Below are positions 1 to 27,768 of a DNA stretch of 32,334 nt, piece by piece. Each line of letters starts with the position of its first letter. The stretch's first letter is position 1. The stretch is from assembly GCA_028282195.1 (NCBI GenBank), contig JANQII010000340.1:1-32334 (forward strand). The letters are read 5' to 3'. Below the pieces are notes generated by a model that was not told the DNA's origin, searched no databases, and saw only the letters and a program-made list of their open reading frames with translations. This DNA comes from Prolixibacteraceae bacterium. Lineage in GTDB: Bacteria > Bacteroidota > Bacteroidia > Bacteroidales > Prolixibacteraceae. A program made the position numbers and the translations under genes.

Positions 1-18
1 TGGGTTTGATTTGTACAG

Positions 19-47
19 GGGTGTCATCTTTTGGAAAGATGACACCC
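19..47. terminator. Strong perfect hairpin, probable terminator of a gene outside the window
   Basis: A 13-bp perfect stem (19-31 with 35-47) closes a 3-base loop; its arms begin GGGTGTC and end GACACCC. No clear T-run follows on either strand, so the terminator reading rests on stem strength and on its place in a non-coding stretch at the window edge. It may belong to a gene to the left that is not visible here. Confidence 0.5.
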
Positions 48-62
48 ATTGTTTACAAAAAT

Positions 63-195
63 ACAGAAAGTCAAAATAAAAAATAAGGAACAAAAAATGT
101 AAAAGTACCGGCCAGGAACTTTCTGATTAGCTATTTCTTATTAGATATTTTACATTTCCCTGTATGAAAATCAAGGCACAGCCGTTTAAACATCA
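63..195. repeat. Dispersed intergenic repeat, copy A (133 bp, uninterrupted)
   Basis: Positions 63-195 match 12324-12604 almost base for base once two insertions in the second copy are removed; the lengths agree exactly (133 + 108 + 40 = 281). The repeat has internal inverted pairs: CAGAAAGT at 64-71 with ACTTTCTG at 118-125, and AAATGTAAAA with TTTTACATTT, so it can fold into a long hairpin. It has no convincing coding content; a 67-codon open frame starting at 164 only reads through repeat sequence. It could be a non-autonomous mobile element or a structured RNA. Confidence 0.8.
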
Positions 196-417: not shown

Positions 418-1629
418 TCATTCTTTACCTTCTAAATAGTCAGACAAATAGTTAAATTTTTCAGTGAGTTTCCCTTTATTCGTGATACTAGCCCTTCCAA
501 TAATATCATCCGGGTCGTCTCCTAAAAGATGAGGGATTACCTTTTCAGACAAGTTCTTTCCAAAATCAATGGAAGCATCTTTGGGTAACTCACACGGCAA
601 ATTATCAATGGCCATTACAGTAATATTTTCTTTTGAAGAAAAAGCTTCTTCCAACTCTCCGGTATCAGGATTATAATCATAAAATGGATTATCTATTGTA
701 CTTGCACGTTTGGTTGAAGGAATTGAACCTTCTATATCACAAGTTACATCAGCAATAACATCAATCTTAAAATCAAGGCCCCTCATTTCCTCAGCAGTAA
801 ATAATACCGGAGCTTTTGGATCCCAAAAGGCCGCAGCAACCAATAAATCAGTATGCGGTAAAAATCGACTGAAATTCCCTTTGTATTTTTGTGGGTATTG
901 AAAGAAATGGTGCAAATCAAACAATTTCCCTTCCTTATGCTGGTTATAATCCCCAGGGTTCAATTGGACATAAACCGGCTGAGAAAAGTCATCCGTAAGC
1001 AAATAATCTTCTACCGAAACTTTTTGAACCCCCGTAGCATCCAGCAATTCCATTGCACCATTGGCAACGCGCCCTCCTCCGGTAACAACAATTTTAACTG
1101 GAGGCAAATCAACAGACCTGGCCTGCTGTTTCATTTCAACCAAATCATCACAAAGGTGTGCTGGTTTCAAATCAAAAAGTTGATGACGTTTGCCATAAGT
1201 CAACCAACCATTGTACGCACCAACCAGACCTGCAAAACGTCCAAAACCAATAATGCGCAAGCCATCTTTTCCGGTTAATACTTCATAGTCAACCAAATGA
1301 ATATTCTTTTTGACAACTTCCTGTAATAGTTTTCGATTGTAAAATTGCTTTTTTATGGTATGAGAAAAGAAAAAGTAAGTTTTATCGGGAATCAAATCCT
1401 GTTTTGGAACTTCCTTTACTCCCATTAATACATCGCAATCAGCCATATCTTCAGTTACCGGAATTCCCACTTCAAAGTACTCATTGTCTTTATAACAACG
1501 AATATTACTAGTTTGAACAACAATTTCCAGTTCCGGATATTTATCCATTAATTCTTTGCACTGCTTAGGCGAAAATGGCACACGCTTATCAGGGGGCTGC
1601 TTCCCTTCCCTTAAAATTCCAATCTTCAT
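418..1629 (-). CDS. Stand-alone lysine-ketoglutarate reductase-like protein (saccharopine-forming, LYS1/AlaDH fold)
   Basis: The 403-residue protein resembles the N-terminal reductase half of eukaryotic alpha-aminoadipic semialdehyde synthase, which joins lysine and 2-oxoglutarate to give saccharopine. Family-like stretches are GILREGK and RVPFSP at the N-terminus, GVKEVP, FFSHTIK, the YEVLTG / GFGRFAG region, a Rossmann segment VVTGGGRV, and a C-terminal IDNLPCELP block. The start at 1629 was chosen because homologues begin at MKIGILRE; an upstream in-frame ATG would add 14 unlike residues. It is the last gene of the catabolic cluster, 147 bp after the ALDH7 gene. The partner half that cleaves saccharopine is missing here and must be encoded elsewhere if the pathway works. 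A related saccharopine or alanine dehydrogenase activity is the alternative. Confidence 0.8.
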   Translation of the reverse strand: MKIGILREGKQPPDKRVPFSPKQCKELMDKYPELEIVVQTSNIRCYKDNEYFEVGIPVTEDMADCDVLMGVKEVPKQDLIPDKTYFFFSHTIKKQFYNRKLLQEVVKKNIHLVDYEVLTGKDGLRIIGFGRFAGLVGAYNGWLTYGKRHQLFDLKPAHLCDDLVEMKQQARSVDLPPVKIVVTGGGRVANGAMELLDATGVQKVSVEDYLLTDDFSQPVYVQLNPGDYNQHKEGKLFDLHHFFQYPQKYKGNFSRFLPHTDLLVAAAFWDPKAPVLFTAEEMRGLDFKIDVIADVTCDIEGSIPSTKRASTIDNPFYDYNPDTGELEEAFSSKENITVMAIDNLPCELPKDASIDFGKNLSEKVIPHLLGDDPDDIIGRASITNKGKLTEKFNYLSDYLEGKE

Positions 1630-1704
1630 ATTAAGATGTATTGATTTTAATATTACCTGCATCAAAACCACAGGGTTTCCTTTATAATTTTTTATTTCAT
1701 TTTT

Positions 1705-1772
1705 GCTGGAAGCTGGAAGCCAGAAGAAAATATCCTAAAAAAACTTCCAGCTTCTGACTTCAGACTTCCAGC
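1705..1772. repeat. Two opposed heptanucleotide repeat arrays forming a hairpin
   Basis: The left arm (1705-1726) is three degenerate 7-mers of the type GCTGGAA on the plus strand; the right arm (1744-1772) is about four 7-mers of the same type on the minus strand (AGCTGGA, AGTCTGA, AGTCAGA, AGCTGGA). The arms are inverted and can pair across a short A-rich spacer. The element fills most of the gap between the ALDH7 and LKR-like genes and directly follows the ALDH7 stop codon, so it may act as a terminator, a message stabiliser, or be a neutral repeat. Confidence 0.6.
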
Positions 1773-1776
1773 TTTT

Positions 1777-3318
1777 TTATATATCAAACTTAATACCTTG
1801 CGCCAATGGCAACTCAGTACTGTAATTAACCGTGTTTGTTTGTCTGCGCATGTATGCTTTCCAGGCATCAGAGCCAGACTCGCGACCTCCGCCTGTATCT
1901 TTCTCACCACCAAATGCACCACCAATCTCAGCACCCGATGTTCCAATATTTACATTGGCAATTCCACAATCGGAACCAGCATGTGACAAGAAACGTTCTG
2001 ACTCCAAAATATTTGTTGTAAAGATTGCAGATGACAACCCTTGTGGCACACCGTTATGGATTTCTATTGCTTCATCAAGATCAGCATATTTTATCAAATA
2101 AAGAAGTGGAGCAAAAGTTTCATCCTGAACAATTTCATAATGATTTTCAACCTCTGCAATACATGGCACTACATAACAACCTGATTCATACCCTTCACCC
2201 TCAAGCACCGTTCCGCCATAAAGGATTTTTCCACCTTCAGCTTTTACTTTCTCTATAGACTCAAGGAATGTATCTCTCGACCAGGTATCAATAAGTGGCC
2301 CAACCAAGGTATTTTCATCAAGTGGATGGCCGATATTAATATTTTTATAAACTGAAATCAGCTTATCCCTGAACTGATCAAAGATTGATTCATGAAGGAT
2401 GATTCTCCGGGTTGAGGTACAGCGCTGACCACAAGTTCCCACAGCACCAAAAGTCACTGCCCTCAAAGCCATCTCCAAATCAGCATTTTCAGTAACAATA
2501 ATTGCATTGTTTCCTCCCAACTCAAGAATTGAACGGCCTAAGCGTTCACCTACCAAACGGCCAACTTTTTTCCCAATTTTGGTTGAACCGGTAAACGAAA
2601 CCAATGGAATATTTTTGTCGCTGAACATATCGTCCCCCAAATATTTTGAGCTGGCAGCAACCAAACTCAATACGCCTTCAGGTACATTATTTCTTTTTAA
2701 TACATTCTGAACCACTTTATGGACTGCAACCGCACACAGGAAAACTTTAGAAGAAGGTTTCCAAACAACCACATCGCCACAAATCATGGCAATCATAGCA
2801 TTCCATGCCCAAACAGCAACGGGAAAATTGAATGCAGAAACGACACCTACAATTCCGAGCGGATGATATTGATCGTACATACGGTGCTCAGGGCGCTCTG
2901 AATGCATGGTGAAACCATACAACTGGCGGGACTGTCCCACAGCAAAGTCACAGATATCAATCATTTCCTGAACTTCTCCAAGACCTTCCTGATAAATTTT
3001 ACCCATTTCGTAGGAAACCAACTTACCAAGTGGTTCTTTGTACTTACGTAACTCAAGTCCGATTTGGCGAACGATTTCCCCGCGTACCGGTGCCGGATTC
3101 TTCCTCCAAACTTTAAAAGCTTCCTGAGCCTGTTTAATTACTCTCGTATAGTCATCACGAGTTGCCTGTTTGATGCCTGCAATTTCTTTTCCATCAGCCG
3201 GTGAATAAGATTTTAACACATCACCCTCAGTGTCTGCCCAAACAGTTCCGGTACAACAACCTTCGTTTACTTCTTTAATTCCAAGTTTTTGTAGTACTTC
3301 TTTAATGTCAAATTTCAT
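1777..3318 (-). CDS. ALDH7-family dehydrogenase, probable L-aminoadipate-semialdehyde dehydrogenase
   Basis: A 513-residue full-length NAD(P)-dependent aldehyde dehydrogenase. The ALDH7 (antiquitin) pattern is clear: FNFPVAVW near 163-170, the cofactor loop SFTGST near 241-246, the general base Glu266 in ELGGNNAI, and the nucleophile Cys300 in GQRCTSTRR. Antiquitin oxidises alpha-aminoadipate semialdehyde (or its cyclic form P6C) to L-alpha-aminoadipate, the step expected after saccharopine in lysine breakdown, which fits the LKR-like gene next to it. A 217-bp gap with a small hairpin separates it from the thiolase gene upstream, so it may have its own promoter. Other ALDH7 substrates such as betaine aldehyde cannot be excluded from sequence. 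Confidence 0.88.
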   Translation of the reverse strand: MKFDIKEVLQKLGIKEVNEGCCTGTVWADTEGDVLKSYSPADGKEIAGIKQATRDDYTRVIKQAQEAFKVWRKNPAPVRGEIVRQIGLELRKYKEPLGKLVSYEMGKIYQEGLGEVQEMIDICDFAVGQSRQLYGFTMHSERPEHRMYDQYHPLGIVGVVSAFNFPVAVWAWNAMIAMICGDVVVWKPSSKVFLCAVAVHKVVQNVLKRNNVPEGVLSLVAASSKYLGDDMFSDKNIPLVSFTGSTKIGKKVGRLVGERLGRSILELGGNNAIIVTENADLEMALRAVTFGAVGTCGQRCTSTRRIILHESIFDQFRDKLISVYKNINIGHPLDENTLVGPLIDTWSRDTFLESIEKVKAEGGKILYGGTVLEGEGYESGCYVVPCIAEVENHYEIVQDETFAPLLYLIKYADLDEAIEIHNGVPQGLSSAIFTTNILESERFLSHAGSDCGIANVNIGTSGAEIGGAFGGEKDTGGGRESGSDAWKAYMRRQTNTVNYSTELPLAQGIKFDI

Positions 3319-3410
3319 ATTTCAAGTTATTTTGAAGTTTTTTTAATGTTAATCTATCGTTCCTTAATTTTATACTTTGATTTATTTAATGAACCCGAAA
3401 ACAATAGGGA

Positions 3411-3425
3411 ACGGTTGAAAACCGT
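3411..3425 (-). terminator. Small hairpin between thiolase and ALDH7 genes
   Basis: ACGGTT (3411-3416) pairs with AACCGT (3420-3425). On the minus strand a TTCCCTATTGTTTTC stretch follows. The stem is only 6 bp, so this is at best a weak terminator that could lower transcription into the last two genes of the cluster. Little else is recognisable in the 217-bp gap 3319-3535. Confidence 0.25.
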
Positions 3426-3535
3426 GGGAAACAATTGTCTGCAACAGTCTTCTATTATATCCCATTGTTTTTACCTTCCTGTTTGATTCCAATGGTTCAT
3501 TATCCTTATCTATAAATTTTCAAGTCTTGAATTCA

Positions 3536-4738
3536 TCAAACTCTTTCCAATACCATTGAAAGTCCTTGCCCAACACCGACACACATGGTGCACAAAGCAT
3601 ATTTTGAGTTGTTTTCCTGTAACTGATAATATGCAGTAGTTACCAAACGTGCGCCTGACATTCCCAAAGGATGACCTAATGCAATAGCACCTCCCAAAGG
3701 ATTGATTCTGGGATCATCATCTTTCAATCCCAGCTCACGGGTACATGCTAAGGATTGAGCTGCAAACGCTTCATTCAATTCAATAATATCCATTTGATCT
3801 AAGGTCATTCCTAATCGTGTTAATAGCTTATTTGTAGCAGGGACAGGACCTATTCCCATAATTCGAGGAGGTACACCAGCTGCCTGCATCCCAAGAATCT
3901 TTGCTTTAGGAGCCAGATTGTGTTTTATTACCGCCTCAGCAGATGCCACAATAACTGCTGCTGCTCCATCATTAATCCCTGAAGCATTTCCCGCGGTAAC
4001 CGTGCTTCCTTCACCAAAAACAGGTTTAAGGGTAGCCAGCTTTTCCAGGGAACTTAATCGTGGATGCCCGTCCTTATCAACAACCAGAGGATCACCCTTG
4101 CGTTGCGGTATTGATACAGGAATAATTTCTTTTGACAAAGCCCCGTTGCTTTGTGCTTCAGCAGCTTTTAGCTGACTGTTATGAGCAAATCTGTCCTGAT
4201 CTTCCCGATTGATATTTTGCTCTTTGGCCAGATTTTCAGCTGTACAAATCAGGGGATCTGTTCCATATCTTTTTTTGAATTCAGCATTTACAAAACGCCA
4301 TCCAATAGTGGTATCATACATTTCTGCATTGCGTGAAAAAGCCTGTGTTGCTTTTGCCATAACCATTGGAGCACGTGACATACTTTCAACACCACCGGCA
4401 ATAATTAAATCAGTTTCACCAGTTTTTATTGTGCGAGCTGCCAGGCCAATCGCTTCCATCCCAGATGAGCACAAACGATTAACGGTCATCCCCGGAACTG
4501 TTTCCGGATATCCGGCCAAAAGCAAAGCCATACGGGCTATATTTCGATTGTCTTCCCCTGCCTGATTTGCGCACCCCAGCATCACATCATCCACTGCTTC
4601 CAAATCCAGTTGTGGGTTTCGATCAACCAGGTTTTTCAATGGAATTGCAGCCAAATCATCTGTCCTGACTGAGGATAAGCCCCCTCCATATTTCCCTACC
4701 GGTGTACGGATAGCATCGCAAATAAAAACTTCTTTCAT
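3536..4738 (-). CDS. pcaF: PcaF/PaaJ-like 3-oxoadipyl-CoA thiolase
   Basis: A 400-residue thiolase that cleaves a 3-oxoacyl-CoA with CoA. It resembles beta-ketoadipyl-CoA thiolases over its full length rather than generic acetyl-CoA acetyltransferases: N-terminal VFICDAIRTPVG, GCANQAGEDNRN, MALLLAGYPE, DTTIGWRF, and MGIGPVPA. Catalytic residues are present: Cys90 in NRLCSSG, His356 in GHPLG, Cys386 in CVGVG. The expected products from 3-oxoadipyl-CoA are succinyl-CoA and acetyl-CoA. The start at 4738 gives the family N-terminus and lies one base after the aminotransferase stop; the ATG at 4762 would overlap that gene. No ring-cleavage or protocatechuate genes are nearby, so a non-aromatic source of 3-oxoadipate is suggested. 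Confidence 0.87.
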   Translation of the reverse strand: MKEVFICDAIRTPVGKYGGGLSSVRTDDLAAIPLKNLVDRNPQLDLEAVDDVMLGCANQAGEDNRNIARMALLLAGYPETVPGMTVNRLCSSGMEAIGLAARTIKTGETDLIIAGGVESMSRAPMVMAKATQAFSRNAEMYDTTIGWRFVNAEFKKRYGTDPLICTAENLAKEQNINREDQDRFAHNSQLKAAEAQSNGALSKEIIPVSIPQRKGDPLVVDKDGHPRLSSLEKLATLKPVFGEGSTVTAGNASGINDGAAAVIVASAEAVIKHNLAPKAKILGMQAAGVPPRIMGIGPVPATNKLLTRLGMTLDQMDIIELNEAFAAQSLACTRELGLKDDDPRINPLGGAIALGHPLGMSGARLVTTAYYQLQENNSKYALCTMCVGVGQGLSMVLERV

Positions 4739-4739
4739 A

Positions 4740-6074
4740 TTATAAGTTATTAAGTTTTTCAATCTTAGGTTTTAAAGCTACAAATGCACGCTGAATTCCT
4801 TCAGCAAGTTTATCAATCTCAGCTTGGGTCATTACTGTTGAAAGCATACAAGAAAAAGTATTAATCATTAAGGTATTTTCCTGATAATACATATAATCCA
4901 GCAACTCATTAATCAACATCTTTCCCTCTTGAGAAAGATATGCTTCCCGGTATGTAGTTGGTGGATCAGGGCGCAAATGCATTCGAAACATGGATCCCGC
5001 ACCGGTAACAGAAACAGGTACGTCTGCTATTTTGATTGCTTCACGTATTTGTTGTATTGCCTTATCAGCCAGAGCATTCAACCTGAGCACTGCTTTTTCA
5101 TCAAAATACTGCATGGCTGTATATCCTGCAGTCATCGTAATTGGATTTGCTGAAAACGTTCCTGAATGTGGAAGCAGAAGGTTTTTTTCATGTGGGTCGA
5201 AAACTTTCATAACTTCTGCACTACCAGCAACTGCCCCAACAGGAAATCCACCACCAATTATTTTCCCCAATGAAGTCAGGTCCGGTTTTACCCGATAGTT
5301 TTCCTGAGCACCTCCATGGTTTACCCTAAACGTTACCACCTCATCAAAAACCAGTAGTGCCCCATTTTTTCGTGTCCAGTTGTGAAGAGCTTCTACAAAC
5401 TCCTGGTTTCCGCGCATCAAGCCAACACGATGCGGAACCGGATCGACAATTACACATGCAATCTGCTCGTTTTGTTTATCAAGAATAGCTAGTGTTCGCT
5501 CAATGTCATTGTAAGGATAGATTATAACATCTTTCGAAACTGAAAGTGGTGTTCCATGCGCCAAAGGAACGCTACTCGGATTATCAACATCACCCCAATT
5601 GGATGGGTTGGCTGTTTGGCTAACCTCAGCAAAATCATAGGTGCCATGATAAGAACCTTCGGCTTTGGCAATTTTTGCCCTTCCTGTATAAGCCCGGGAA
5701 GCTTTAATCATAGCCATTACGGCTTCAGTTCCAGAGTTTACAAACCGAATCCGTTCAAAACTTTCTACCCGATCAATTAAATGTGACGCAAAGGCTACTT
5801 CAATTTCCGAAGCCAAAGTATAAGCAGTACCTTTTTTTAACTGCTCAATTACAGCATCTACTATTGGAGGGAAAGAATGGCCATGAATAAGTGCAGCCAT
5901 ATTATTGGCAAAATCGGTTCGAACTGTGCCTTCAATATCAGTTATAAAACAACCTGATGCTGCATTGGCATAATCAGGATAAGGTTTCCGGAAAACAGTA
6001 TTTCTGCTAACACCACCTACAATGACCTGACGAGCCTTTTTGTATATTTTTTCACTGTTCTTTTTGTTCGGCAT
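4740..6074 (-). CDS. Class III PLP aminotransferase of the beta-amino-acid / glutamate-1-semialdehyde type
   Basis: The 444-residue protein has the class III fold: SGTEA near 114-118 and YHG near 142-144 around the cofactor phosphate and ring, FDEV with Asp244, and the PLP lysine Lys271 in SLGKIIGGG. Overall it resembles glutamate-1-semialdehyde aminomutase, but the N-terminus reads GGVSRNTVFRKPYP rather than the aminomutase-type GGVNSPVRAF, closer to beta-amino-acid aminotransferases such as those acting on beta-phenylalanine. It lies between PcaJ-like and PcaF-like genes with gaps of 18 and 1 bp, so its product is probably a beta-keto acid. I infer that it converts beta-aminoadipate to 3-oxoadipate. 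It is unlikely to be the heme-pathway HemL because of this context. Confidence 0.75.
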   Translation of the reverse strand: MPNKKNSEKIYKKARQVIVGGVSRNTVFRKPYPDYANAASGCFITDIEGTVRTDFANNMAALIHGHSFPPIVDAVIEQLKKGTAYTLASEIEVAFASHLIDRVESFERIRFVNSGTEAVMAMIKASRAYTGRAKIAKAEGSYHGTYDFAEVSQTANPSNWGDVDNPSSVPLAHGTPLSVSKDVIIYPYNDIERTLAILDKQNEQIACVIVDPVPHRVGLMRGNQEFVEALHNWTRKNGALLVFDEVVTFRVNHGGAQENYRVKPDLTSLGKIIGGGFPVGAVAGSAEVMKVFDPHEKNLLLPHSGTFSANPITMTAGYTAMQYFDEKAVLRLNALADKAIQQIREAIKIADVPVSVTGAGSMFRMHLRPDPPTTYREAYLSQEGKMLINELLDYMYYQENTLMINTFSCMLSTVMTQAEIDKLAEGIQRAFVALKPKIEKLNNL

Positions 6075-6092
6075 AAATGACGTATTACTAAT

Positions 6093-6749
6093 TTACGGCA
6101 AATTCAATTTAGCATCGGTATTTTGTTGCAGATAATCAAAACTAACACCAGGTGCAAGCTCTCTCACCCTAAGCTGTTTGTCCTTTACATCAAGTATCGC
6201 AAGGTTAGTGTATATCCGACTTACTACATTTTTACCGGTAAGTGGATATGTGCAGTTTTCTACAACTTTTGACGCCCCGGTTTTTGTATTGTGTTTCGTA
6301 ATTACATAAATGGTTTTCACTCCAGCCACCAGGTCCATCGCTCCTCCTACAGCAGGGATATCGTCAGGGTTTCCGGTTGACCAGTTAGCAAGGTCTCCTT
6401 CTTCTGAAACCTGGTAAGCTCCTAAAACGCAAATATCGATATGGCCTCCGCGAATCATCGCAAAACTATCAGCATGATGAAAGTAAGTAGCACCGGGAAT
6501 GGTGGTCACATATTTCTTTCCGGCATTAACGAGCTCGGGATCTTCAAAGCCACTCTCAGCAACTTTGCCCATACCCAGCAAACCATTTTCAGTATGATAA
6601 ATCACCTCACGGGCTTCAGGAATAAAGTCGGCTACCATTTCAGGAATACCAATACCTAAATTCACATAAGCTCCATCGTGAATGTCCATGGCAACTTTTT
6701 GTGCCATTTCCGGCACGCCCCAACCAATTGTTTTAGTATTTGATTCCAT
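6093..6749 (-). CDS. pcaJ: 3-oxoacid CoA-transferase subunit B, PcaJ-like
   Basis: This 218-residue protein is the beta subunit of a family I CoA-transferase. It carries the SENG-type motif as HTENGLLGMG, holding the catalytic glutamate that forms the acyl-CoA intermediate, plus AYVNLGIG near the N-terminus, YFHHADSFAMIRGGH, and AVGGAMDL. The match to PcaJ (succinyl-CoA:3-oxoadipate CoA-transferase) continues to the C-terminus. The start at 6749 (MESNTK) overlaps the subunit A gene by 17 bases; an ATG at 6770 is possible but adds a non-family extension. With subunit A it would activate 3-oxoadipate using succinyl-CoA. The related acetoacetate enzyme (ScoB/AtoA) is the alternative. Confidence 0.86.
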   Translation of the reverse strand: MESNTKTIGWGVPEMAQKVAMDIHDGAYVNLGIGIPEMVADFIPEAREVIYHTENGLLGMGKVAESGFEDPELVNAGKKYVTTIPGATYFHHADSFAMIRGGHIDICVLGAYQVSEEGDLANWSTGNPDDIPAVGGAMDLVAGVKTIYVITKHNTKTGASKVVENCTYPLTGKNVVSRIYTNLAILDVKDKQLRVRELAPGVSFDYLQQNTDAKLNLP

Positions 6750-7455
6750 GGTATTTACTATTTTCAGCAACTAATTTTGATTCGTCAGCCGGATTTACAA
6801 TCTCTACAACCCGATTAACGAAAATGCCCGGCGTTACAACATGCTCCGGATTAATCTCTCCAACTAGTACAACTTTCTTCACCTGAACAATTGTTGTTTT
6901 GGCTGCCATGCACATTACAGGGCCAAAGTTTCTTGCCGTTTTGTTATAAATTAAGTTTCCATATTTATCAGCAGCATAAGATTTCACCAGCGCAAAATCG
7001 GCCTGTATCGCTTCTTCCAGAACATATTTCTGGCCGTTAAAAACCCGTTCTTCTTTGCCATCTTCCAATGGTGTATTTACAGAAGTTGGTGTATAAAAGG
7101 CTGGAATTCCTGCTCCGGCTGCCCGGATTCGTTCGGCTAAAGTTCCCTGAGGAACAAGCTCCAGTTCGATTTCACCTTTTCGATATAATTCAGGAAAAAC
7201 AACAGAAATTGCAGTACGGGGAAAGGAGCATATAATCTTCTTCACCTGCCTGTTTTCGATAAGAGCGGCTAATCCAACATGACCACTCCCAGCATTATTG
7301 CTTACAATGGTCAAGTCTTTTGCGCCTTGATCAACAAGAGCATGGATTAGCTCCACCGGACTTCCGGCTTCACCAAAACCACTGATCATTACAGTTGCTC
7401 CATCAAAAACATCGGCAACCGATTCAGCTGCTGATTGTACAATTTTGTTGATCAT
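6733..7455 (-). CDS. pcaI: 3-oxoacid CoA-transferase subunit A, PcaI-like
   Basis: A 240-residue alpha subunit of the family I CoA-transferase. Family signatures are the glycine-rich GFGEAGSPVELI near 27-38, LTIVSNNAG, CSFPRT, VPQGTLAERIRAAGAGIPAFYTPT (oxyanion and CoA-binding part), and ARNFGPVMCMAAKTTI, close to PcaI in wording and length. Its ATG overlaps the stop of the KamA-like gene by four bases (ATGA), which implies coupled translation of the aminomutase and the transferase. It forms a heteromer with the next gene product. Acetoacetate transferase (ScoA/AtoD) is the main alternative specificity. Confidence 0.86.
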   Translation of the reverse strand: MINKIVQSAAESVADVFDGATVMISGFGEAGSPVELIHALVDQGAKDLTIVSNNAGSGHVGLAALIENRQVKKIICSFPRTAISVVFPELYRKGEIELELVPQGTLAERIRAAGAGIPAFYTPTSVNTPLEDGKEERVFNGQKYVLEEAIQADFALVKSYAADKYGNLIYNKTARNFGPVMCMAAKTTIVQVKKVVLVGEINPEHVVTPGIFVNRVVEIVNPADESKLVAENSKYHGIKY

Positions 7456-9014
7456 TGTTGTCCTTTTACCGTTTCTCGTTTCAACGCTTCCTCAAGCTGG
7501 TTTTCAATCCCTTCCAACTCGTTTTCATAAAAGTATTTATCGGCATCATAAGGTTTTAGCTTCTCGATGGTATTCTCTTGCTCATCGTACTTAGCAAAAT
7601 ATACGCTGTCCATCCATTCCATGTTTCGCGCTTCGTTGAACTTTAGTGCAAAAACTTTTTCTCCATTTATCATCGTCGTACCTAACAATGAAGTTTTGCC
7701 CGCAGAAGAAGTCATGGTAATATGCCGGGAAGGACGATTAATGGATGCCAACTCACGATATACCTTGCTGAATATTTTGGTGATGTCAGCCAATGGGGCT
7801 GTAAAATAATGGTGCTCACCTGTTGGCCTTGCGCAGTACATTGAATGGAATCCAACCCCAACCATTGCAAGCACATTCCCTAAATCAATCCAGTTCTGTG
7901 CCGAGTGATCAACATCTACTTTGCCCTTCTCATTTTTAAACAGACTGATGTGATTCATGACCGGGCTCTGGCTTTTAATGTTTAAGCCGTACTTTTTTAA
8001 ACGACGAATTGCGGCCAATGCTCCCGGATTTAAGACTTCGCGTGGAGTTGAAAGATGAGCCATCCAAACCACCTGAATACCACTATCAACTACTTCTTTT
8101 AATAATTCCAGAATCTTAGTGAACTTCTCACTAAACAAAAATTCCGGGTGAAAAGTAATTGCTCTCGAACCAATCCGAAGACTTCTGATATGTAACAAAT
8201 CTTCGTCTTCCATCAAAGGAGTAACATATTCTTTTAACCGATCATAAGAAATGTATCCTCCATCTCCTCCGGTTATCAAAACATCAGTAATTTCTTTATG
8301 CTTTTTAAGGTAATTGTGCACCTGGGCGATGTCCCGCTGAACAAACATATCCTCATCACCACGAACCTGTGCATGCCTAAAACAGTAAGTACAAAATGCA
8401 AAACAGTTTTGCGTTCCAACATCAAGAACCAACTTAATTGGAGGATACTTGTGCTGACTACCTTCAAGGATTTCCAACTGCCCATCCCCATTCTTAAAGA
8501 ATGGCTTGTTTAGCTTTTGTTTTCCATCGTGAGGGTTTGTTTTTAGCTGGTAATCCTCAACTACCTGTTCACGTTCCTTATCCGTTTTGGCTTCAAGATA
8601 TTTCTGAACATCTTCTTTATTGATCATCCCCGGTTGCGGAAATATCAGGTGGTAGTTAGAATCTTGTTCATAGTTCTCCCAATCCATTGTATTCAGAATA
8701 TGCTTGGTCGCCATAAAACGATATACTTCAAGAAAAAATTCTCTTTCTTCAACATCCTGAATATGAATACCACGCAGACTGAGTTGCTCCAAAATTTCGC
8801 GAAACCCTTTTATGCCTGTATAATGCGTTTTGCCCTTAAACATGGCCTTTCCTGATTTCAAAAATCCAGAATAATTCGGGAAACATTTATGCAAACGATT
8901 TATCAATCCTAACGGAAGTAAATCTTCGTTTCTGATCATTTGAATGGTCTCTTGATCAAAATCATATGCCAGGAGCATTTTGTTAATATCTGACTGATCA
9001 ATCTCTCTCTTCAT
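7452..9014 (-). CDS. Divergent KamA-family radical SAM aminomutase (candidate alpha-aminoadipate 2,3-aminomutase)
   Basis: The 520-residue protein is a PLP-dependent radical SAM enzyme of the lysine 2,3-aminomutase family. Visible are the cluster cysteines Cys204, Cys208 and Cys211 (CxxxCxxC), Arg213 two residues after the last cysteine as in KamA (substrate carboxylate), the SAM-binding ITGGDGG near 247-253, and the PLP lysine Lys440 in SSAGKTSL. By-eye alignment to clostridial KamA puts Ala395 or Arg396 at its Asp293 and Thr433 at its Asp330; these two aspartates hold the lysine epsilon-amino group and are known to be replaced in glutamate 2,3-aminomutase. The substrate is therefore probably not lysine. 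It is first gene of the cluster and overlaps pcaI by four bases. kamDE, kdd and kce of lysine fermentation are absent. Confidence 0.82.
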   Translation of the reverse strand: MKREIDQSDINKMLLAYDFDQETIQMIRNEDLLPLGLINRLHKCFPNYSGFLKSGKAMFKGKTHYTGIKGFREILEQLSLRGIHIQDVEEREFFLEVYRFMATKHILNTMDWENYEQDSNYHLIFPQPGMINKEDVQKYLEAKTDKEREQVVEDYQLKTNPHDGKQKLNKPFFKNGDGQLEILEGSQHKYPPIKLVLDVGTQNCFAFCTYCFRHAQVRGDEDMFVQRDIAQVHNYLKKHKEITDVLITGGDGGYISYDRLKEYVTPLMEDEDLLHIRSLRIGSRAITFHPEFLFSEKFTKILELLKEVVDSGIQVVWMAHLSTPREVLNPGALAAIRRLKKYGLNIKSQSPVMNHISLFKNEKGKVDVDHSAQNWIDLGNVLAMVGVGFHSMYCARPTGEHHYFTAPLADITKIFSKVYRELASINRPSRHITMTSSAGKTSLLGTTMINGEKVFALKFNEARNMEWMDSVYFAKYDEQENTIEKLKPYDADKYFYENELEGIENQLEEALKRETVKGQQ

Positions 9015-22672: not shown

Positions 22673-25600
22673 ATGTCTCAACTAAAAACCTATTTCAAAA
22701 CAATTGCAGTCTTTTGCTTGGCAAGCATGCTGACATTAGCAAGCACTGCTCAGGAAATTACCGTGAAAGGGAAGGTGAGTTCAAAAAGCGATGGTTCATT
22801 TTTACCCGGTGTTTCTATAGTAATTAAAGGAACCAACCAAGGTGTTGTCACTAATTTTGATGGGGAATACCAGATTGAAGCTCCTTCCGATGGCATTTTG
22901 ATTTTCTCTTTTATTGGAATGAAAAGCCAGGAAGTTAATGTTGGCGGAAGATCAACCATCAACATTGTTCTTGAAGATGAAACAACTGACATTAGTGAAG
23001 TTGTTGTAGTTGGTTATGGTACCCAGAAAAAAGTAAACCTGTCTGGTGCTGTTGATGCGATTGACTCCAAACAACTGGAAAGTCGTCCAATAAACAGCAT
23101 TTCACAGGGGTTGCAAGGTGCAGTTCCGAATCTTAATATTGATTTTGTAAGTGGCGAACCCGGACAAGTTGCACAAATCAACATAAGGGGTATTACTTCA
23201 ATTAATGGAGGAGATCCACTTATTTTGATCGATGGGGTACCTGCAAGTCCTGAAGAATTAAACAGGCTTTCCCCTGAAGATGTAAGCAATATCTCGGTAT
23301 TGAAAGATGCTTCTTCTGCTGCAATTTACGGAGCCAGAGCCGCTTTTGGGGTTATTCTCATTACTACTAAAGTAGGAAAAAAAGAGGGAGTTTTTATTAG
23401 CTATAACAACAACTTCTCATGGGATAAGCCAACTATCCTGCCGGACAAAATTACAGACCCTTATATTTATCTTCGATTACGCGAAACCTCTACAGACAAT
23501 ACACCGTGGGATAATCAGAATTACAGCGACGAAACGTATTTATGGGCAAAACAACGCTCTGATGATCCTTCGGGAACTGAAGGGGTAAGGGTAAACCCAA
23601 ATGATGCAAGTACCTGGGAATATATGGGAAACAGAGACTGGACGGACTATTTTTTAGGTGATTATACTTTTTCACAAAAACACCATATCACCATAGATGG
23701 CCGATCAGAAAAAGCACAATACTATTTGTCCGGATCATATGATAATCAGGCTGGTGCATTAAAACTTGCTGACGACTTATATGATCGCTACAGTATACGA
23801 AGTAAAGTGAACTATCAACCTTATTCATGGCTAACGGTAGGAAACAATACACTTATTACACTTACAGAACGTGAAAAACCGTCTTACTTATCCATGTGGG
23901 ATTTATACAATTTTCACCCAAATGAATGGGATAAGAACCCAGATGGGACATGGGCAAACACTTGGGTTGGTGAAACCGGTGCCAGATTAACAAAAGGAGG
24001 AGATGAAAATAAAAAATACAATACAGTACAATCTACTTTCACCGGTGAAATGCGTTTTTTTCATGATGCTTTAAAAATTAACGCTGACTACACTATTCGA
24101 AAAGGTACCGGGAATTACCGCTGGTACTATTCAAAATATAAAATTGGTTATGGCCCGGAAGACGTTCGTGAAATTGGGAACAATAAAGCTTTTAGAAGTG
24201 CGACTTTTGATACCTACAATGTATTTAATATTTACAGTACATTGAATAAAAAACTGAATAGTCATGAAATAACTGCAATTGTTGGGTTTAACCAGGAATA
24301 CAGTCGTTATGAATGGTTTAAAGCTGAAAAAGAAAAGGTAATTTCTTCATCGCTCCCAACGATTGCCCTTGCAACCGGAGAAGACCATGTTGATGAAGAT
24401 ATTGAAGACTGGTCAATCCGGGGACTGTTTTACCGATTAAATTATATGTATGCAGACAAATACATTGTAGAATTTAATGGCCGTTATGACGGATCATCAA
24501 AATTTCCGAAAGATGATCGTTTTGGGTTTTTCCCATCAGCTTCTGTAGCCTGGCGTATTGACAAAGAAAGCTTTATGTCCGCTGCAAATAATACCATTAG
24601 TCAATTTAAACTACGTGCATCATACGGCTCATTAGGTAACCAGGCAGTTGGTGCATATGGGTATATTCCTACAATGGATGCATCTATTGGCGATTATATT
24701 ATCGGTGATAACCGTCCACAAATTGTATCTCCTCCATCATTGGTATCATCAAACTACACGTGGGAAAAAGTTTCTACGATTAACTTTGGTTTCGACCTTG
24801 GCTTATTTGATGATCGCTTAACTGCCATGTTTGACATGTATACACGTAATACAGAGGGCATGCTTACATTAGGTAGGGATTTGCCAGATGTTTTGGGAGC
24901 TGATGAACCAATGGAAAATGCTGCTGACCTCAAAACTAATGGATGGGAACTTTCAATAAATTACCGTAATACATTTAAACTGGCAGGTAAACCTTTCTAT
25001 TTTGATACCAAGTTTATTTTATCTGATAGTCAGGCTGAAATTACAGAATTTGATAATCCAAACAGAAACCTAACACAATTCTACAAAGGAATGAAAATGG
25101 GTGAAATCTGGGGATTACAAAGTGATGGTTTATTCAAAACCCAGGAAGAAATTGATGCCCTGGATCAAACCAGCATTATCCCCTGGGGTGCCCTTTCAAT
25201 TGTTCCTGGCTGGCCAAAATACAAAGACCTTGATGGTAACAATGCCATTGAAAAAGGATTAACAGTTGATGACCCTAAAGATCTTTCTGTTATTGGAAAT
25301 ATTTCGCCCCGTTTACGTTTTGGGTTGAACCTGAATTTTGAATGGAATGGCTTTGATTTAAGAGCATTTTTCCAGGGAATTGGCAAACGTGATTATTATC
25401 CGCTTGACTATCTTTACTGGGGCTTTTACCAACAGCCGTATGCGGGCGGATATCAACACTTAACCGACTTTTACCGTGGTTCTGATGATAGTGATGTTAA
25501 TCGTGCCAAACATTCTCAATCCTATATTGATGCCGGGCTCGCTGATGCAAATACTGATTCCAAATATCCAATCCTGCAATCCTGGCTGGCAGACCGTAAC

Positions 25601-25936
25601 CTGGGGGAACGTATCGATGAATCGAAAGGTTTGGCCATTCCTCAAACCGATTATTTACTTGATGCTTCTTACATCCGATTTAAAAATTTAACCGTAGGGT
25701 ACACGCTTCCAAAATCATTAACAAAAAAAATTAATATTGACCGTATTCGGATATTCGTAAGTGGTGAAAACCTGGCTGAATGGTCAGAACTAAAAGACTA
25801 CTACGACCCGGAAGCAATTACCGATGTCTTCTACAAGTATAATCCAGAAGACAATCCTGATGAAAGGGAAAATGGCAAAGGCTATGCTTATCCGTTCCAA
25901 CGCAGATACTCATTTGGTATAAACGTCAACTTTTAA
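22673..25936 (+). CDS. SusC/RagA-family TonB-dependent outer-membrane receptor
   Basis: A 1087-residue outer-membrane active transporter. After a signal peptide (about 1-26) comes a carboxypeptidase-like regulatory domain (about 29-105, ITVKGKVSSKSDGSFLPGVSIVIKGTNQGVVTNFDGEYQIE), then the plug (about 110-225, VVVGYGTQKKVNLSGAV, ISVLKDASSAAIYGARAAFGVILITTK) and a long beta-barrel ending in the aromatic GINVNF. There is no N-terminal STN signalling domain, so it is not coupled to an ECF anti-sigma factor. It pairs with the SusD-like gene 23 bp downstream. The cargo is not readable from the barrel; neighbours suggest a phosphorylated compound. Confidence 0.93.
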   Translation: MSQLKTYFKTIAVFCLASMLTLASTAQEITVKGKVSSKSDGSFLPGVSIVIKGTNQGVVTNFDGEYQIEAPSDGILIFSFIGMKSQEVNVGGRSTINIVLEDETTDISEVVVVGYGTQKKVNLSGAVDAIDSKQLESRPINSISQGLQGAVPNLNIDFVSGEPGQVAQINIRGITSINGGDPLILIDGVPASPEELNRLSPEDVSNISVLKDASSAAIYGARAAFGVILITTKVGKKEGVFISYNNNFSWDKPTILPDKITDPYIYLRLRETSTDNTPWDNQNYSDETYLWAKQRSDDPSGTEGVRVNPNDASTWEYMGNRDWTDYFLGDYTFSQKHHITIDGRSEKAQYYLSGSYDNQAGALKLADDLYDRYSIRSKVNYQPYSWLTVGNNTLITLTEREKPSYLSMWDLYNFHPNEWDKNPDGTWANTWVGETGARLTKGGDENKKYNTVQSTFTGEMRFFHDALKINADYTIRKGTGNYRWYYSKYKIGYGPEDVREIGNNKAFRSATFDTYNVFNIYSTLNKKLNSHEITAIVGFNQEYSRYEWFKAEKEKVISSSLPTIALATGEDHVDEDIEDWSIRGLFYRLNYMYADKYIVEFNGRYDGSSKFPKDDRFGFFPSASVAWRIDKESFMSAANNTISQFKLRASYGSLGNQAVGAYGYIPTMDASIGDYIIGDNRPQIVSPPSLVSSNYTWEKVSTINFGFDLGLFDDRLTAMFDMYTRNTEGMLTLGRDLPDVLGADEPMENAADLKTNGWELSINYRNTFKLAGKPFYFDTKFILSDSQAEITEFDNPNRNLTQFYKGMKMGEIWGLQSDGLFKTQEEIDALDQTSIIPWGALSIVPGWPKYKDLDGNNAIEKGLTVDDPKDLSVIGNISPRLRFGLNLNFEWNGFDLRAFFQGIGKRDYYPLDYLYWGFYQQPYAGGYQHLTDFYRGSDDSDVNRAKHSQSYIDAGLADANTDSKYPILQSWLADRNLGERIDESKGLAIPQTDYLLDASYIRFKNLTVGYTLPKSLTKKINIDRIRIFVSGENLAEWSELKDYYDPEAITDVFYKYNPEDNPDERENGKGYAYPFQRRYSFGINVNF

Positions 25937-25959
25937 ACTGAATTGAAAAACATTGAATC

Positions 25960-27768
25960 ATGAAAAAGATATTAAACTTACTTACAATTTTTTCGATCAT
26001 TCTGCTCTCAGCCTGTAATGACGAATTTATGGATCGATTTCCTGAAACTTCAATTGGGACTGAAAATTTCTTTAAAAGCGAAGAAGATTTAGCCATGTAC
26101 GTTTTTAATCTCTATGATTTCCCGGGACTGGATATCTATGGAGACGATGCATATAATACTTCAGATAATGCAACTACCACAGGTAATACTGAGCTTAAAA
26201 CCATGATGATCAGCAATCCATCATCAGCTACCATTACCGGAGGATGGGATTGGGAACAATTAAGAAGCATAAACTTATTTCTTGAAAATGCTGACCGTGC
26301 AGATGTACCCGAAGATATACTGAACCATTATAAAGGCATTGCACGTTTTTTTCGTGCCAAGTTTTATATGCATAAAGTAAAAAGATATTCCGATGTGCCC
26401 TGGTATGACCAAACGATAGGTACCAGCAACGAAGAATTACTTTTTAAAGGACGCGATTCCCGAACAATGATCGTTGATAAGATTTTTGAAGACTATAGTT
26501 TTGCGGCACAACATGTAAAAACGGATCAGAAATCAGGTGCTGTTGACAAATGGGTTGTTTTAGCATACCAGGCCCGACATGCATTATACGAAGGTACTTT
26601 CAGAAAGTACCATCCGGAACTGGAGCTTGAATCTTCTGCAAATAACTATCTTGAAATGGCAGCAAACTTGTCAAAGCAAATTATGGATAATGGGGGATTT
26701 GCGATTCACAATACCGGTAACCCATCTTCTGACTATGCCTCTCTATTCGTAAATACCGATCTGCAATCCAATCCTGAAGTTATTTTAACTACCATTTTTG
26801 AACAGGATGTCCGCAACAGTGGTTTTTGGGCATGGTATTTTGGTGATTATGAAGTGGGACCGTCCAAAGACTTACTTCAGTCTTACCTGATGGCTGATGG
26901 TACATACTATTCGAGTGTTGCAAATTATCAAACAAAGCTATTTGTTGAAGAATTTGAGAACCGTGACCCACGATTAATGCAAACTTACGCGTACCCGGGA
27001 TGGGAACTGATTAATACCGAAACTTATTCGCAAGGTGGAGGTATTTACAAGCAACGCTTGCAAAAAAACTTTTCCGGCTACCATCAAATAAAAGGATTTG
27101 TTAACGACAAATCTGAAACCGTTCAGGAGAGTATTGATGTTCCTGTTATCCGATATGCTGAAATACTTCTTACCTATGCCGAAGCAAAAGCTGAGTTAGG
27201 ACAACTTACACAGGGAGACTTAGATATTACCATCAATGTTCTTCGTGATCGTGCAGGAATGCCAAACCTTTCCCTGAACCCATCAATTGATCCGGTTCAG
27301 GAATCTCGTTACACAAATGTTACATCTTCACAGAAAAATGAAATTCTTGAAATCCGTCGCGAACGAAGAATCGAGTTAGCATTGGAAGGTTTCAGACACG
27401 ACGATTTGATGAGATATGCCGCAGGGAAGCTTTTGGAAAATGAACCAGAAGGTTTGTATTTCCCCGGATTAGGCAGGTATGATTTGACTGGTGATGGTGT
27501 TGAAGACATTATTCTGCTTGACCTGTCAGAATCTATCCCTGCTGCCGCTGATAAAGAGAAGAATTCATTGGGTGAAACTTTTATTTATTACCGGGTTGGA
27601 CCGCAGGATTCTGATGCTTCATTCTATTTAAATAATGGAACAAGCGGAACTGTTGGAACTGTAAAGGAAAGGGGCACATTTGTTGATCCAAAATATTACT
27701 ATCGTCCAATTCCGCAGACTCATGTTACTGTAAATCCAAATCTGACACAACTATTTGGTTGGGAATAA
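25960..27768 (+). CDS. SusD/RagB-family substrate-binding lipoprotein
   Basis: A 602-residue surface lipoprotein with a lipobox LLSAC (Cys near 19) followed by acidic residues at +2 and +3, as in export to the cell surface. It has the SusD start FMDRFPETSIGTENFF, helical TPR-like parts (AIARFFRAKFYMHKVKRYSDVP) and the C-terminal block VIRYAEILLTYAEAKAELG and EIRRERRIELALEGFRHDDLMRYAAG. It caps the SusC-like barrel and captures ligand. A long stem-loop after it probably ends or attenuates the transcript before the phosphoesterase genes. Confidence 0.92.
   Translation: MKKILNLLTIFSIILLSACNDEFMDRFPETSIGTENFFKSEEDLAMYVFNLYDFPGLDIYGDDAYNTSDNATTTGNTELKTMMISNPSSATITGGWDWEQLRSINLFLENADRADVPEDILNHYKGIARFFRAKFYMHKVKRYSDVPWYDQTIGTSNEELLFKGRDSRTMIVDKIFEDYSFAAQHVKTDQKSGAVDKWVVLAYQARHALYEGTFRKYHPELELESSANNYLEMAANLSKQIMDNGGFAIHNTGNPSSDYASLFVNTDLQSNPEVILTTIFEQDVRNSGFWAWYFGDYEVGPSKDLLQSYLMADGTYYSSVANYQTKLFVEEFENRDPRLMQTYAYPGWELINTETYSQGGGIYKQRLQKNFSGYHQIKGFVNDKSETVQESIDVPVIRYAEILLTYAEAKAELGQLTQGDLDITINVLRDRAGMPNLSLNPSIDPVQESRYTNVTSSQKNEILEIRRERRIELALEGFRHDDLMRYAAGKLLENEPEGLYFPGLGRYDLTGDGVEDIILLDLSESIPAAADKEKNSLGETFIYYRVGPQDSDASFYLNNGTSGTVGTVKERGTFVDPKYYYRPIPQTHVTVNPNLTQLFGWE

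Follow-up and report, generated by a model that had tools for sequence, protein, structure and literature searches.

A candidate lysine degradation route through beta-aminoadipate and 3-oxoadipate in a gene cluster conserved across several bacterial phyla

What do genes of the beta-ketoadipate type do beside an aminomutase-like gene and two genes of lysine breakdown? The question is raised by a 32,334-nucleotide stretch of DNA from Prolixibacteraceae bacterium (assembly GCA_028282195.1, contig JANQII010000340.1; the window hereafter), which is an entire contig of a 5.8-Mb genome in 348 contigs (G000). Positions 418 to 9014 of the window's minus strand hold seven consecutive genes, as the original prediction from the letters alone had claimed, transcribed in the order KAM, PcaI, PcaJ, aminotransferase (AT3), PcaF, ALDH7, and LKR; the contig stops 417 bases beyond LKR. 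Probably, this operon encodes the complete lysine degradation route via beta-aminoadipate and 3-oxoadipate that was predicted. This reading is supported by a conserved five-gene core, a saccharopine dehydrogenase (SDH), linkage to ALDH7 and LKR, the loss of lysine-binding aspartates in KAM, and the types of the PcaIJ and PcaF proteins.

In the proposed route, LKR would join lysine and 2-oxoglutarate to saccharopine, SDH would convert saccharopine to aminoadipate semialdehyde, and ALDH7 would oxidize the semialdehyde to L-alpha-aminoadipate. KAM, as a radical S-adenosylmethionine (SAM) and pyridoxal phosphate (PLP) 2,3-aminomutase, would then produce beta-aminoadipate (3-aminoadipate) by an amino-group shift, and from this product the class III aminotransferase would form 3-oxoadipate. 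The PcaIJ-like subunits would convert this acid to 3-oxoadipyl-coenzyme A (CoA), with the CoA presumably coming from succinyl-CoA, and the PcaF-like thiolase would cleave the product into succinyl-CoA and acetyl-CoA. None of the six lysine carbons would be lost, and no oxidative decarboxylation of 2-oxoadipate would occur.

Families were assigned by matches to NCBIfam models and solved structures. Two proteins exceed equivalog cut-offs: PcaF (3536..4762) that of the 3-oxoadipyl-CoA thiolase model TIGR02430 (666 bits; cut-off, 597) and ALDH7 (1777..3318) that of the L-piperidine-6-carboxylate (P6C)/aminoadipate-semialdehyde dehydrogenase model NF050084 (807 bits; cut-off, 730). The 3-oxoacid CoA-transferase subunits A (PcaI, 6733..7455) and B (PcaJ, 6093..6770) exceed the subfamily cut-offs of TIGR02429 (357.5 bits; cut-off, 128.5) and TIGR02428 (294.6 bits; cut-off, 243.55), so the predicted PcaIJ-like and PcaF-like identities hold; the pcaI_scoA and pcaJ_scoB models also cover other 3-oxoacids, and substrate choice is putative. 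LKR (418..1671), with AlaDh_PNT_N/C domains and no NCBIfam equivalog found, appears from its match to a solved LKR to be a lysine-2-oxoglutarate reductase (saccharopine dehydrogenase of the lysine-forming type). Among solved structures it is closest to the LKR portion of human alpha-aminoadipic semialdehyde synthase (AASS; 8dda, 3e-43) and next to lysine-forming saccharopine dehydrogenases such as 2qrj. AT3 (4740..6074; PF00202), the putative beta-aminoadipate aminotransferase, has 6k8h, ForI, and then GSAM and beta-transaminases as its closest solved relatives and carries R24 in all 67 aligned sequences; of 68 NCBIfam models matched, 25 were listed, and it scores under the cut-offs of all of these, GSAM-type models being nearest. 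KAM (7452..9014; 520 amino acids), the proposed L-alpha-aminoadipate 2,3-aminomutase, is recognized by a remote KamA match and a fold match to 2a5h. In-frame ATGs at 1629 (LKR), 4738 (PcaF), and 6749 (PcaJ) suit the family starts better than the listed starts, which are probably too early. The genes kamDE, kdd, and kce, stated in the prediction to be absent, were indeed not found among the seven genes scanned, no genome-wide search having been made.

Named genomes were scanned with a four-row KAM alignment, which gave 122 relatives, 80 of which were kept. Together with L021, L022, L023, and L149, this amounts to 84 loci, of which 67 are testable, with 4.6 kb or more of sequence following KAM; one contig is apparently counted twice in the 84, L023 and L046 seeming to be the same. 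The core KAM-PcaI-PcaJ-AT3-PcaF is complete and in the same order in 65 of the 67 testable loci, so the grouping is not due to chance, and the co-occurrence of the KamA-like gene with pcaIJF extends over several phyla. Carriers are labelled Bacteroidota (several families), Balneolales, Ignavibacteria, Cloacimonadota, Acidobacteria, Sumerlaeaceae, Geobacter, Desulfuromusa, Shewanella, Photobacterium, Aliivibrio, and Motiliproteus, among others; the labels may err because many records are metagenome-assembled genomes (MAGs). Since named isolates (Draconibacterium sediminis, D. mangrovi, Maribellus sediminis, and Marinifilum fragile) carry the core, the proposed route is directly testable. Close KAM orthologues occur in 5 of 61 relatives, the G034 copy being split over two contigs. 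A phylum-wide sample of 296 genomes held KAM at E 1e-120 in two, the window's own included, and with two carriers is uninformative for co-occurrence. No close KAM was found on plasmids: all 86 matching records were below 60% identity, and the best among the 20 listed reached 32.3%.

The lower steps were compared by identities, with no tree, against few references (four pairs for PcaIJ). PcaF shares 65% identity with a Rhizobium PcaF, 62% with Escherichia coli PaaJ, and 44% with AtoB. PcaI shares 57% with the Rhizobium subunit beside pcaF, 53% with a Sphingobium CoA-transferase, and 40% with E. coli AtoD; the corresponding values for PcaJ are 56%, 44%, and 42% (E. coli AtoA). The prediction had named a preference for acetoacetate as a point that would count against it; by sequence identity, PcaF and PcaIJ are instead nearer to the 3-oxoadipate-type than to the acetoacetate-type references. 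The highest PcaIJ match is an unassigned Tistrella pair (66% and 62%). This pair lies on a Tistrella mobilis plasmid (L163, 1-6391; 62-66% identical) near DUF1338 and aldehyde dehydrogenase genes; we take DUF1338 to be a family acting on 2-oxoadipate, which would hint at lysine again.

The saccharopine dehydrogenase, which the prediction drew from elsewhere, belongs to this operon in relatives, and in the window's genome it lies at the edge of a contig that overlaps the window. In G031, G035, and G016, the run KAM-PcaI-PcaJ-AT3-PcaF-ALDH7 is followed by an SDH of about 446 amino acids, and the G031 copy, on which the solved-structure match was run, hits the SDH portion of human AASS (5l78, 1.5e-63). 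The window's genome has a 65% identical SDH gene on contig C73 (C73:239-1561), and the first 99 bases of C73 equal the low end of the window, reverse complemented, as an exact end overlap. Probably, an eighth gene thus follows the operon across the overlap. The join is likely rather than proven because the 99-base overlap (window 1..99, with a 13-bp hairpin at 19-47) is a dispersed palindromic repeat with 71 genome matches, some being two strands of one palindrome, and three exact full-length copies (C308, C73, and C108). LKR is located elsewhere in G016, G034, and G035 and on another contig in G031.

Genes leading from lysine to aminoadipate recur near the core in separate lineages. ALDH7 is present in the DNA examined at 16 of the 84 loci, in the Draconibacterium/Maribellus group and its relatives and in Desulfuromusa, Geobacter, and alphaproteobacterial records, and SDH-type genes at 15. 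In Cloacimonadota (L075), an SDH-like gene, LKR, and one other gene precede the core. In Desulfuromusa (L103), the order is ALDH7 (801.6 bits), amino-acid ABC transporter-like genes, a LysR-like gene, and the core, followed by an ornithine-aminotransferase-like gene below cut-off; the transporter binding protein is under the cut-offs of all 14 models matched. Geobacter (L113) has ALDH7 on both sides. An alphaproteobacterial MAG (L115) shows a LysR-like gene, KAM, AT3, ALDH7, and a 358-amino-acid saccharopine-dehydrogenase-family gene, perhaps a lysine 6-dehydrogenase, shortly before the contig end. LKR was found in 36 of 54 KAM genomes, including 10 of the 22 without a cut-off ALDH7.

Relatives that lack KAM offer a second view of ALDH7, which occurs in 5/5 KAM genomes versus 14/56 others among the 61 relatives. 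Nine of these 14 ALDH7 neighbourhoods were opened (L141-L147, L157, and L158). ALDH7 lies near homoaconitase-like genes in six, not in L146, L157, or L158, and the order ALDH7-LKR-SDH is found in five (L141-L145). Loci L141 (499-12074), L142 (550-11739), L143 (7846-19154), and L144 (2563-14044) share a row of CitF, an isocitrate/homoisocitrate-dehydrogenase-like gene, a gene of about 184 amino acids, two homoaconitase-like genes, ALDH7, LKR, and SDH. At L147 (3633-10481) and L145 (1616-8867), ALDH7 and saccharopine genes likewise adjoin homoaconitase-like genes, and L159 (9355-12091) has CitF together with an ACP plus CitE-like fusion. Family scans cover L142, L159, and one L147 gene, and the CitF search finds CitF in all four rows, whose other gene names rest on similar protein openings. 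CitF is present in 16/61 genomes, in none of the five with KAM, and in 11 of the 14 with ALDH7 and no KAM, not always beside ALDH7; KAM and CitF were found together in 0/61. The 19 ALDH7 genomes thus comprise 5 with KAM, 11 with CitF, 3 with neither, and 0 with both. One or the other occurs in 16/19 ALDH7 genomes versus 5/42 without ALDH7 (all CitF; Fisher p 7e-8, ignoring kinship), and G031 and G010, of one genus, have one module each (KAM versus CitF type).

Two unrelated modules joined to ALDH7 are both best explained as consuming what comes of alpha-aminoadipate. The homoaconitase/CitF module reads as a reversed alpha-aminoadipate pathway, in which 2-oxoadipate would pass through homocitrate to 2-oxoglutarate and acetate, and is possibly a second undescribed lysine route. 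We find it rather probable that these observations belong to one undescribed multi-phylum scheme of lysine breakdown with alpha-aminoadipate as its branch point, consumed by the KAM route in some lineages, in sister lineages by the reversed homocitrate pathway with a homocitrate-lyase-like cleavage, or by a free-standing aminoadipate core in lineages without lysine genes.

Several observations weigh against the lysine route. Of the 50 KAM genomes searched, only 28 have an NF050084 match above cut-off, the window and L075 are the sole loci with LKR beside the core (1/84 loci besides the window), and LKR is also present in 28/56 KAM-lacking relatives versus 5/5 with KAM. The co-occurrence counts ignore relatedness. 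Six same-genus genomes in the sample lack both a close KAM and a cut-off ALDH7, AT3 has no equivalog assignment in NCBIfam, PcaF is missing beside the core in L113 and L119, and the contig join passes through a repeat. In addition, 11 of the 50 core-bearing genomes (six Shewanella and one each of Photobacterium, Aliivibrio, Motiliproteus, Sumerlaeaceae, and a Bacteroidales record) have no cut-off ALDH7, LKR, lysine 6-aminotransferase (LAT), or LodA.

These 11 genomes favour an alternative in which the core has a different alpha-amino acid as its substrate, glutamate or some other, and the lysine genes are its neighbours by chance or through shared regulation; nor is the specificity of KAM readable from known members. 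However, the recurrence of lysine-to-aminoadipate genes near the core in separate lineages and a thiolase type that points to a six-carbon oxodiacid make this alternative improbable. Genomes without the lysine genes may take up aminoadipate, make it by other enzymes, or use the core on a different substrate. Because of them, support for the full lysine route extends to only part of the range over which the core occurs.

Two explanations of the Shewanella-type genomes were tried and rejected. LodA (PF17990) and LAT (TIGR03251, E 1e-60), searched for in 28 genomes (the 22 KAM genomes without a cut-off ALDH7 and six others), were each present in one only, LodA in G100 and LAT in G070, one of the 22. 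The Shewanella, Photobacterium, and Aliivibrio loci (L082, L087, L090, L091, L100, L101, L102, and L104) hold the five-gene core and, close by, a LysR-like gene (family scan in L082 only); the eight genomes searched show none of the four lysine-to-aminoadipate families.

KAM had been predicted to be a KamA-like 2,3-aminomutase. The fold, cysteines, PLP lysine, and arginine of such an enzyme are kept, but by its sequence KAM is a new, separate subfamily and not a close KamA. Six KamA-type NCBIfam models match at 50.5-72.9 bits (cut-offs, 199-650), and KAM falls below both the lysine 2,3-aminomutase equivalog TIGR03820 (59.8 bits; cut-off, 525.4) and the glutamate 2,3-aminomutase equivalog TIGR04368 (54.5 bits; cut-off, 650). 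A 68-row tree, which carries a long-branch warning elsewhere, sets KAM apart by a branch supported at 100/100. The top solved match of its AlphaFold2 model (mean pLDDT, 86.5; pTM, 0.89; cluster stretch 212-215, including R213, poor) is the 416-residue lysine 2,3-aminomutase (LAM; KamA/AblA) of Clostridium subterminale (2a5h; E 1.5e-14; root mean square deviation, 8.8; TM-score, 0.53 by query and 0.66 by target; 17-18% identity in the structure alignment). Profile comparison with three LAM-type proteins gave 99.3% probability over residues 183-447. C204, C208, and C211 (CxxxCxxC), R213, and K440 are invariant in 48 rows and align with LAM-type proteins; we take K440 to be the PLP-binding lysine and R213 the carboxylate-binding arginine, as in LAM. 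In the columns of the two aspartates presumed to bind lysine, KAM has A395 and T433 (S in some rows).

Replacement of both aspartates, by Lys and Asn, marks glutamate 2,3-aminomutase (PMC3965090) and offers a precedent for taking an acidic substrate. This Lys/Asn pair is not present in KAM, in an alignment that held no glutamate enzyme. R396, R427, and R430 are invariant in the 48 rows, lie close to the replaced positions, and could conceivably hold the far carboxylate; the idea is weak because KAM paralogues of about 35% identity share the aligned arginines. We infer that KAM converts L-alpha-aminoadipate to beta-aminoadipate. If KAM were instead a lysine 2,3-aminomutase, lysine would pass through beta-lysine, 6-amino-3-oxohexanoate, and its CoA ester to acetyl-CoA and 4-aminobutyryl-CoA, with LKR and ALDH7 forming a separate lysine route. 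Such a scheme needs no ALDH7, LKR, or SDH and would suit the genomes where none was found, but KAM has other residues in place of both lysine-binding aspartates, its PcaF and PcaIJ neighbours are of the 3-oxoadipate type, and window-type operons devote up to three genes to making aminoadipate; we consider it highly improbable. A close lysine 2,3-aminomutase was rejected on the far-below-cut-off scores and the lost aspartates.

Two groups of KAM paralogues were also seen. One, at about 35% identity and likewise without the two aspartates, includes L026 7646-8941 (window's genome, C175), L029, L030, L031, L032, L038, and L039, and adjoins mreB/mreC/mreD/penicillin-binding protein/rodA-like genes (by eye). 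The other, at about 30%, includes L027 8527-9798 (window's genome, C200), L033, L034, and L040, and adjoins a flavodoxin/diflavin reductase-like protein of 530-560 amino acids (by eye).

The direction of the pathway could be reversed, leading from succinyl-CoA and acetyl-CoA to aminoadipate or lysine, as in principle the thiolase, transaminase, and aminomutase could each run backwards. Oxidation of the semialdehyde by an ALDH-type enzyme is effectively one-way, however, and amino-acid ABC transporter-like genes lie between ALDH7 and KAM in L103, which leaves biosynthesis a very small chance. An aromatic beta-ketoadipate role for the pca-type genes, with KAM unrelated to them, can virtually be dismissed: although PcaF scores above cut-off for an equivalog whose name comes from that pathway and G102, the sole genome with an intradiol dioxygenase (PF00775) among 54 KAM genomes, could use both, that family occurs in just 1/54, and in 65/67 loci the genes for KAM and the aminotransferase are interspersed with those of the pca type. 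The prediction saw no ring-cleavage gene, and no PF00775 was found in the window's genome either, extradiol enzymes not having been searched for.

The reaction types in the proposed route from lysine through beta-aminoadipate are known; what would be new is their order, together with one enzyme subfamily. The route shares its first three steps, to alpha-aminoadipate, with the saccharopine pathway, whereas aminoadipate would be isomerized rather than transaminated to 2-oxoadipate, and glutaryl-CoA would not be formed. The last two steps and enzyme types are those of the lower beta-ketoadipate pathway, except that 3-oxoadipate would come from an amino acid and not from ring cleavage. The Bacillus yod operon has a similar mix of enzyme types (kamA, class III aminotransferase, and CoA-transferase genes) together with an acetyltransferase and a deacylase; it is not known to include PcaF or saccharopine genes. 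Clostridial lysine fermentation (kamA, kamDE, kdd, kce, and kal) likewise pairs a 2,3-aminomutase with CoA-dependent C-C cleavage but has other intermediates and products, and no B12-type mutase is among the genes scanned here. PMC8473912 describes 2,3- and 6,5-amino shifts.

No description of an aminoadipate 2,3-aminomutase or of a lysine route through beta-aminoadipate was found among the matches listed in one open-access library, subscription journals being mostly outside coverage, which agrees with the prediction, where no described pathway with these steps in this order was known. The portions of PMC9007349 seen contain no mention of aminoadipate or an aminomutase, those of PMC9309667 nothing on the proposed route, those of PMC9105233 none of the residue numbers sought, and those of PMC9854754 a sole mention of beta-aminoadipic acid, in a reference title about lysine 6-aminotransferase. 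If correct, the reading would give environmental bacteria a further way of degrading lysine and radical SAM aminomutases a new substrate. PcaIJ/PcaF-type genes would then be used outside aromatic degradation, where name-based annotation would misread them. Retention of six carbons and the lack of glutaryl-CoA steps may suit anaerobes.

Away from the operon, the window's genome encodes a second P6C dehydrogenase above cut-off (783 bits; L127 5622-7175, contig C334), which adjoins another aldehyde-dehydrogenase-like gene. The window itself also holds a large SusC/SusD-like outer-membrane uptake pair (by eye) at 22673-27768, followed by a phosphoesterase-like gene.

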